Origin: an uncultured Psychroflexus sp.
GTDB taxonomy: Bacteria > Bacteroidota > Bacteroidia > Flavobacteriales > Flavobacteriaceae
Assembly (NCBI GenBank): GCA_913062845.1
Contig: CAJXVZ010000001.1
Coordinates: forward strand, 92,645-156,644
DNA length: 64,000 nt
Direction of reading: 5' to 3'
In this document: positions 52,472 to 63,901 of the stretch, one piece after another
Layout of the letters: every line of letters starts with the position of its first letter
Position numbering within the stretch: position 1 is the first letter of the stretch
The notes under the pieces: model-generated
Databases searched by the model: none
Seen by the model: the letters and a program-made list of their open reading frames with translations, nothing else
Told to the model about the DNA's origin: nothing
Program-made: the position numbers and the translations under genes

Positions 52472-53117
52472 TTTTAAGGTCTTGTAAAAATAAATTATTA
52501 AGGTTTGAATGATTAAGGCCTGATTCAATCAAGCCTGAAACAAATTTAAGTATTTAGATGCAATACAGATGGTGAAATTGATAATATACAGATTAAAATG
52601 TGTGCCAGTAAAAATTGAATTGACTTGGACTTACGATAGAAAAAGGAAACAACATTTGTTGAATCCGCCAGCAGTATTTTCCCGGAGACGCAATAAAAAT
52701 GCTCGTGGTTATAATTACAATGAAGACCTAGGTTTTGTAGCTCATAGTAATATTTGTTATTCACCGGAGCATTCGGTATTTATTAAATTGCCGATTTTTG
52801 ACAAATAAAAAAGTCGTAAAGATAGGATTACTAAAGTGTTCCTTAATTCTGTAGTGATGCTAAGGAAAAGCCAGCACCTTTTAGTGCTTATGTCTTTTCT
52901 ATTTTGAGTCGCTTATGAAAGTTTCACTTTCAACGCTCACAAAATAAAAAAGCCAATAATCAAAAGTTTATTGGCTTTTCTTTGTCGGGATGAGAGGATT
53001 ACTAACGTGATCCTCAAAAAGGGAACGATGCTAAAGAAAAGCCAGCACCTATCGGTGCTTATGCCTTTTTTATTTTGTGTCATTTACAATAGTTTCACTT
53101 TTGACATTCACAAAATA

Positions 53118-53152
53118 AAAAAGCCAATAATCAAAAGATTATTGGCTTTTCT
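53118..53152 (-). terminator. Terminator downstream of tRNA-Pro
   Basis: Minus strand: AAAAGCCAATAATC-tttt-GATTATTGGCTTTTTTATTTT; a second near-identical copy lies 171 bp further downstream (about 52949-52980). Confidence 0.8.
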
Positions 53153-53156
53153 TTGT

Positions 53157-53230
53157 CGGGATGAGAGGATTCGAACCTCCGATCTCGCGCCCCCCAGACG
53201 CGCACTTTAACCGGACTAAGCTACATCCCG
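53157..53230 (-). tRNA. tRNA-Pro (anticodon GGG)
   Basis: Minus strand CGGGATGTAGCTTAGTCCGGTTAAAGTGCGCGTCTGGGGGGCGCGAGATCGGAGGTTCGAATCCTCTCATCCCG folds as a 74-nt cloverleaf: perfect 7-bp acceptor stem, GGTTCGAATCC T-arm, anticodon loop CTGGGGG. CCA not encoded. Confidence 0.93.
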
Positions 53231-53350: not shown

Positions 53351-53402
53351 CCAGACGCGCACTTTAACCGTCCCGATAGCTATCGGGATAAGCTACATCC
53401 CG
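53351..53402 (-). pseudogene. tRNA-Pro 5'-half remnant with an 18-bp palindrome in the D-loop
   Basis: CCAGACGCGCACTTTAACCG (53351-53370) and TAAGCTACATCCCG (53389-53402) are identical to tRNA positions 53194-53213 and 53217-53230; the intervening GAC is replaced by TCCCGATAGCTATCGGGA (53371-53388). Confidence 0.9.
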
Positions 53403-53459
53403 AAATTTGAACGGCAAATTTAAGTTTTATTATCCTTTTAGAAAAATGATTTAAACCTG

Positions 53460-63235: not shown

Positions 63236-63631
63236 GGGGTCGATTTGGTTTTGACAGCAAGACCTATTGGAGAGTAAGCACGTCGAGCATTGGAATGTGG
63301 CTCGTAAATATCATGTTTCATCCTTTTTTAAACGGCGAGAATAACTACGCCTTAGCTGCGTAATCTGAATTATAGTAGGATACGCTTAATCCCGACAAGG
63401 TCGGGAGCTAAGATGTCTCCGGAAAGCCTTGATTTATGGCGTTCCATCAGGAGGCACCGGTAAAATAAATCTAGAAATGTTATGGTCTCGATAGCATTTT
63501 GAAATTTAAGAGACTAGATATAAAGTAGGTTGTATCTTGCCAGCTTTATATCGAAATTCAAGTTGATACTAAGCGTGTAGAAAGCTGTTTAATAGCTTGT
63601 TTGGACGGGAGTTCGAGTCTCCCCGACTCCA
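63236..63631 (+). ncRNA. ssrA: tmRNA
   Basis: 5' GGGGTCGATTTGGTTTTGACAGC and 3' GGGAGTTCGAGTCTCCCCGACTCCA pair as the tRNA-like domain. Tag ORF 63334-63363 GGC GAG AAT AAC TAC GCC TTA GCT GCG TAA = (A)GENNYALAA. Confidence 0.97.
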
Positions 63632-63901
63632 CTTTTTTGATCATTCAAGAATGGGCACTTAAACACTTATACTTTATTACTAAGAAAATAATCTTTCAGA
63701 TTGTTTGTAAAGCTATTCAAGCATTATAATTTTTTTAAATGAATCTGATCATTTGATATAATTAAATTTGTTTGGATCTATTTCTGGTTTAGTTCCCATC
63801 CGACAATGCAATAACATTATATTTCATTAAATTTATTACTTTTTGGAGATATTTAATATTCATAACAATTCACTACTGTCCGGTAAAGATAAACTAAACC
63901 A

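Follow-up and report, generated by a model that had tools for sequence, protein, structure and literature searches.

Tandem units behind a Psychroflexus tRNA-Pro gene and a candidate family of structured tRNA-trailer elements in Bacteroidota

Tandem repeats that begin exactly where a tRNA gene ends could be decayed tRNA copies, scars of integration, or elements with a structure of their own. This question is raised by the tRNA-Pro(GGG) gene in a 64,000-nucleotide stretch of contig CAJXVZ010000001.1 from an uncultured Psychroflexus sp. (the window), behind which Tandem Repeats Finder detected an array with a period of 171. An earlier, sequence-only reading of the window had described three register-locked copies starting with the tRNA-Pro 3' end, viewed them as degenerate tRNAs whose body had been replaced by hairpins, and proposed that they yield small structured RNAs made along with the tRNA or cut from its transcript, or else were left behind by repeated integration. 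Here, these possibilities were examined at the locus itself, in related genomes and across the Bacteroidota.

The units behind tRNA-Pro(GGG)

Two direct copies are real (52813-52983 and 52984-53154, 82% identical), while what was taken for a third copy, at 53155, is the intact tRNA-Pro(GGG) itself, read from its 3' end. On the minus strand, the tRNA gene (53230-53155), unit 1 (53154-52984) and unit 2 (52983-52813) adjoin without a gap (Table 1). The tRNA-Pro 3' end is exactly repeated over its last 17 nt in unit 1, whereas the corresponding tail of unit 2 has decayed. No tRNA body was found in the units by ARAGORN or Rfam; P1, P2 and P3 occupy that place, and since the units of the wider family contain no tRNA body either, neither the degenerate-tRNA view nor the idea of a replaced body could be upheld. 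With Rfam 15, tRNA alone exceeded the gathering threshold at the window locus and at the family loci searched.

Table 1. Features of the tRNA-Pro(GGG) locus in window coordinates.
Feature	Position	Strand	Basis
tRNA-Pro, anticodon GGG, intact	53155-53230	minus	ARAGORN; Rfam tRNA, 61.3 bits
Unit 1, 171 nt, better preserved	52984-53154	minus	direct repeat; RNA fold z = -7.1
Unit 2, 171 nt, older, decaying copy	52813-52983	minus	82% identity to unit 1
Unit 1 P1 5' strand AAAGAAAAGCC, directly 3' of the tRNA	53144-53154	minus	predicted fold
Unit 1 H1, hairpin and T-run resembling an intrinsic terminator of the tRNA	53117-53152	minus	16-pair stem and TTTTTT
Unit 1 P2, long A/T-rich stem	53066-53122 (approximate)	minus	predicted fold; interspecies compensatory changes
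Unit 1 P3, hairpin AGCACC-GATA-GGTGCT	53044-53059	minus	predicted fold and terminator scan
Unit 1 P1 3' strand GGCTTTTCTTT	53033-53043	minus	complementary to 53144-53154
Unit 1 H4, T-arm-like hairpin GAGGATCAC-GTTA-GTAATCCTC	52994-53015	minus	predicted fold; conserved in the family
Unit 1 tRNA-Pro tail copy AATCCTCTCATCCCGAC	52984-53000	minus	exact match to the final 17 nt of the tRNA
Unit 2 H1, terminator-like hairpin	52946-52981	minus	

The fold of unit 1 was predicted at -56.9 kcal/mol and none of the shuffled sequences was equally stable; its antisense strand was just as stable when folded (z = -7.4). The duplicated terminator that had been noticed is present, with H1 stems of 16 and 14 pairs in the two units, each followed by a T-run. 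Eight terminator-like sites were counted in the window units against 0.8 ± 0.9 in shuffles, and further unit hairpins precede T-rich tracts on both strands. The hairpins had also been thought to keep their pairing despite base changes. They do exist, and the comparison of unit 1 with unit 2 gave four double compensatory changes, all of them in P2, together with one changed pair that is kept in P3; however, five pairs differ in pairing state between the units, so that preserved pairing judged on the window alone is suggestive but not proven.

Other RNA genes were seen in the window. Just upstream of the intact tRNA-Pro lies the broken 5' half of a second tRNA-Pro (53351-53406, minus strand), whose D-loop region holds an 18-bp palindrome, TCCCGATAGCTATCGGGA; a comparable partial tRNA-Pro copy lies near tRNA-Pro(GGG) in a relative (genome G013, locus L032). 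An ordinary tmRNA gene with the tag peptide GENNYALAA is located at 63236-63632 on the plus strand.

A common fold with little common sequence

The units share a constant layout, in which P1 starts from the tRNA CCA position and encloses H1, P2 and P3, followed by a linker, H4 and the tail copy, which forms the 3' side of H4 where it is preserved. Their size is about 160 nt (171 bp in the window, about 130-190 bp in relatives). In many other members P2 is capped by a CTTG-type loop, and RNA-type loops of the CTTG, GNRA and TTCG kinds are present among the units, while the H4 loop ranges from about 2 to 22 nt. The outer pairs of H4 tend to track the T-stem of the host tRNA (CAGGAT, GAGGAT, CTGGAT, GGGAT, TGGGAT). 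A stricter rule, by which the 5' arm of H4 would in every unit be fully complementary to the host tail, was only partly right, as the match is lost in some units. The P1 5' strand has two possible partners, the 3' arm of H1 and the 3' strand of P1, and full-length H1 and full-length P1 are therefore mutually exclusive.

A covariance model, R1, was built from 22 proline-linked units including window unit 1 and contains no tRNA body. Unit 1, as one of its training sequences, scored 116.6 bits over 52994-53154, and unit 2, which lay outside the training set, scored 98.5 bits over 52823-52983. Nine of the 11 P1 pairs covary across genera. When the 22 units were aligned with MAFFT, 151 double-change cells were obtained, compared with 62 ± 7 for shuffled and 25-71 for slid controls, a test in which H4 carries little information because most members had been picked out with a pattern that included it. 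For 105 units from many tRNAs aligned with R1, the corresponding values were 1288 and 405 ± 18 (shuffled), this alignment being biased towards the structure with which the model was built.

The most independent test of covariation came from tRNA-Val orthologues, which were aligned without structure. At the tRNA-Val(GAC) locus, RNAalifold recovered P1, P2, P3 and H4 de novo from 13 orthologues, with 14 compensated pairs. The P1 helix AAATCCAA/TTGGATTT of some species is AATCCCAA/TTGGGATT in others, and the H1 arm co-varies with it. Orthologous units were 69% identical, as against 42% just downstream, in a region that holds some second copies, and 34% in the background. These units mostly have no tail copy and still keep the fold by compensatory changes, which argues that unit maintenance is independent of the tail repeat. 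Taken with the controls, the covariation strongly supports a common fold, and the hairpins noticed in the window are conserved in relatives, the fold being kept in the tRNA-Val unit orthologues of 13 species of the genus.

Distribution, descent and neighbouring islands

A pattern combining H4 with the tRNA-Pro tail was found at 35 loci in 85,462 genomes, where by our own estimate about 0.1 would be expected. All of them were in Bacteroidota (among others Polaribacter, Gillisia, Kordia, Eudoraea, Aestuariivivens, Subsaximicrobium, Olivibacter, Pedobacter and Puia) except for one MAG labelled Bifidobacterium, which has a Bacteroidota-like unit and tRNA. The MAG contig in question, CALPIE020000020.1 (L115), is labelled Bifidobacterium breve and bears a Bacteroidota-type tRNA-Pro with a unit; its bin is probably mislabelled or contaminated. 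The units at the pattern loci have little sequence in common and the same layout. Plain BLAST with the unit beyond the genus returned mostly terminator hairpins and was unusable for distribution.

With R1 at stricter settings, matches were obtained in at least 151 of 301 Flavobacteriaceae genomes (113 of 203 genera) and in at least 30 of 396 genomes in a sample of the phylum; within the genus, R1 matched at least 21 of 27 genomes. All three are minimum values, as only a few candidates were scored in each genome, and the E-values came from a short calibration. About half of the 301 Flavobacteriaceae genomes gave no R1 match at the settings used. The sequence-only reading had pointed to related genomes as the place to look for the unit, and with matches in 21 of the 27 it is indeed present there.

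Adjacency to tRNA genes was not used in building R1, and 68 of the 92 matches examined begin no farther than 10 nt from the 3' end of a tRNA; most of the others follow a tail copy. A tail copy is kept in 17 of these 68 tRNA-adjacent matches and is always that of the host tRNA itself. Three genomes of other genera were checked in full: of the 47 units in them, 36 begin no more than 12 nt from the 3' end of a tRNA, and units follow 15 of 38, 14 of 37 and 7 of 37 tRNA genes, respectively. Four of the six orphan units in these genomes lie 19-34 kb downstream of a tRNA on the same strand, a spacing that would be expected if an island separated unit and tRNA.

About twenty anticodons host units, and R1 matches were found at tRNAs for Pro, Ser, Val, Arg, Leu, Lys, Phe, Gln, Glu, Asp, Tyr and Met. 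The window genome has units behind its Pro(GGG), Pro(TGG), Gln, Val, Arg and Ser tRNAs. Related units stand behind tRNA-Pro(TGG) in many members of the genus; tRNA-Pro(GGG) units were present in the window genome and absent from the relatives whose GGG tRNA was read. Some tRNA-Pro(TGG) genes of the genus encode CCA (...CGACCA) and others do not (...CGAC); relatives differ in this, and the bases immediately behind the gene differ along with it. Units of the window had no match in 50,697 phage and 72,556 plasmid records, nor did the H4 and tail pattern match any of 2.9 million viral contigs, and a phage or plasmid origin was rejected on these grounds. No description of the unit family was found in the open-access library searched.

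To compare descent, unit sequences were taken without H4 and tail. Of 105 units, 82 had their closest relative at a tRNA of the same amino-acid specificity (shuffled mean 32, maximum 48), which indicates that units travel mainly with the tRNA type, and only five of the 105 had their closest relative at another tRNA of the same genome. Arg units are common to several Arg isoacceptors. The unit tree was weakly resolved.

Large islands also lie in the neighbourhood of tRNA-Pro in relatives. In relatives, the 15-bp tRNA tail recurs tens of kilobases away, always on the strand of the tRNA, and bounds stretches of 23-47 kb, some at tRNA-Pro(TGG) and others between unit tails. Two genomes, G026 and G019 (L112), have next to tRNA-Pro a gene for a tyrosine integrase, whose domains are Arm-binding, SAM-like and catalytic. 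The att-like use of the tRNA 3' end that had been suspected is seen in relatives. Since some of the stretches lie between units, islands appear to use the unit tails for attachment, or else the units were added in front of islands. As an observation on their arrangement, the 23-47-kb stretches of G004, G007, G025 and G026 (L095-L105, L109-L111) are stacked at tRNA-Pro(TGG) before, between or after units. The units themselves contain neither an integrase nor other genes between tail copies; with a length of 171 bp in the window and of about 130-190 bp in relatives, they leave no room for an integrase. The possibility that units are fused ends of large islands was rejected, as the island ends examined had no H4 or unit halves. 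The idea of integration relics holds for the neighbourhood, which in related genomes does have islands, and is not supported for the units, which are unlike the island ends examined and are inherited mainly with the tRNA type.

A separate kind of repeat, here called type B, occurs in the genus and consists of a repeated tRNA tail in which the T-arm or T-loop is replaced by a REP-like palindrome, for example GGTTC-TCCCGAAACTTCGGGA-CTGCCACCCCGAC. Type B copies were seen at L006, L013, L022, L025, L030, L109, L119 and L137, and sometimes alternate with folded units in one array.

Possible nature of the units

We favour, with a probability of roughly one in two, the reading that the units are a Bacteroidota-wide family of structured tRNA-trailer elements that work as RNA. 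The family is apparently undescribed, and it is probably functional because the fold is kept while the sequence changes. Units lie on the same strand as the tRNA, start at its 3' end and occur in tandem. The structural part of the earlier proposal, that of structured RNAs tied to the tRNA transcript, is strongly supported by a conserved fold with compensatory changes in many genera and behind many tRNAs, and we infer that the units are transcribed and processed. Judged from sequence, that the fold acts as RNA can be held at about one half. The RNA-type loops and the position behind a transcribed tRNA favour RNA; counting against it, both strands fold equally well. G.T pairs in the units were at 0.50 of expectation and A.C at 0.34, compared with 0.48 and 0.03 in true tRNAs, so the excess of G.T over A.C mismatches is weak; it is found outside P1, which has no strand preference.

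In the mechanism proposed for such trailer RNAs, the tRNA transcript would mostly terminate at H1. A read-through transcript would refold, with the 5' arm of H1 shifting into P1, and the refolded product may persist as a stable, compact RNA or act as a trailer with an effect on 3' processing or the level of the tRNA. It counts against this reading that termination at H1 would leave the remainder of the unit unmade in most transcripts, as do the lack of an R1 match in about half of the Flavobacteriaceae genomes and the bias of the R1 alignment. Tandem copies would arise by recombination across tail repeats. Release of the product could parallel that of rtT RNA, which is released from the E. coli tyrT transcript.

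The layout of the window locus resembles the rtT locus, a likeness that amounts to analogy rather than demonstrated homology. In the tyrT-tyrV region of E. coli K-12, whose repeats we take to be the Rfam family RtT (RF00391), three 178-bp units and one related spacer unit were found, each ending in an exact 19-nt tRNA-Tyr tail. The spacer unit (L240, 1530-1738) is rtT-like (87% over 122 bp) and has the tRNA-Tyr tail, so that E. coli has units behind both tRNAs. Both systems have tandem units directly behind a tRNA (178 bp compared with about 171 bp), each E. coli unit ends in an exact tail copy preceded by GT, and a 5' arm, GGGGAAGGAT, pairs with the tail copy, ATCCTTCCCC, on the same principle as in H4. 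However, the tail-pairing stem of rtT is long-range and encloses more than 100 nt, whereas H4 is a short local hairpin, and rtT is confined to one tRNA-Tyr locus as far as examined, in contrast to the many tRNAs and genera of the Bacteroidota units. Direct membership in rtT was rejected, as R1 failed to match the tyrT locus: its only hit there, 3.9 bits with E = 1.6, fell in the inter-tRNA spacer and not at an rtT unit. Conversely, RtT had no Rfam match on the window or the family loci at the E-values used. Tyrosine-integrase islands likewise leave tRNA tail copies on the strand of the tRNA and use the same 15-bp tail in relatives, unit tails included, but the units encode nothing, are about 160-180 nt long and have a conserved fold of their own, unlike the island ends seen. 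REP-like palindromes are also short palindromic intergenic repeats, and one replaces the T-loop in type B tails; the units differ in being long, multi-hairpin and tied to tRNA ends, with architecture rather than sequence in common.

The fold might instead be kept because it is a recombination substrate, as in a MITE-like, non-autonomous element that inserts at tRNA tails through folded single-stranded DNA or a cruciform and is moved in trans by a putative recombinase. Target-tail copies at the unit ends, tandem arrays, patchy presence and the many host tRNAs would suit such an element, but the units group by tRNA type and very rarely with units at other tRNAs of their own genome, and the Val orthologues retain P1 to H4, most of them without a tail. 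Equal fold strength on both strands and a P1 without G.T preference are as expected for DNA, yet an H4 loop of about 2 to 22 nt is unlike a fixed recombinase core. The tRNA-Pro(GGG) units found in the window genome and not in the relatives read, and the Arg units common to isoacceptors, also speak for mobility; no partner gene was found, however, and phage and plasmid records gave no match. On balance we regard this explanation as rather unlikely. Retron-like and integron attC-like readings were dropped for want of a matching gene and of a fixed site geometry.

It is improbable that the unit solely ensures bidirectional termination by strongly transcribed tRNA genes, as a terminator or insulator at the DNA or nascent-RNA level: H1 is a good terminator and other hairpins have T-rich tracts on both strands, but termination needs no closed junction with a covarying P1, conserved linkers and H4, and no T-arm-like hairpin that tracks the tRNA. 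Very little credence is given to neutral debris, meaning tail duplications left as islands integrated again and again at a tRNA attachment site and unequal crossing-over took place there. Such an origin would agree with the tail-bounded islands at tRNA-Pro in relatives and with the decay of window unit 2, but it is already largely refuted by the covariation, with compensatory changes in the fold across genera and in orthologues, and the same architecture stands behind about twenty anticodons.

More tentatively, and somewhat short of even odds, the trailer elements may constitute an RNA class that is genome-wide in Flavobacteriaceae and thinner in other Bacteroidota, combining a terminator/junction switch with a T-arm mimic. 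If so, a unit would trail as many as about 40% of a genome's tRNA genes, the H1/P1 switch would control tRNA output or yield stable RNAs coupled to tRNA synthesis, and E. coli rtT would be an isolated analogue of a general phenomenon. Attached to about twenty kinds of tRNA gene in half of the Flavobacteriaceae genomes sampled, and absent from Rfam at the tested loci, the family would rank among the more abundant structured elements of Bacteroidota that have yet to be catalogued. It joins three loose ends, namely the poorly explained rtT repeats, the reason why integration favours tRNA 3' ends, and the way in which tRNA genes end in a phylum whose known RNA regulation is scant. The R1 model and the Val orthologue set make the family directly testable.
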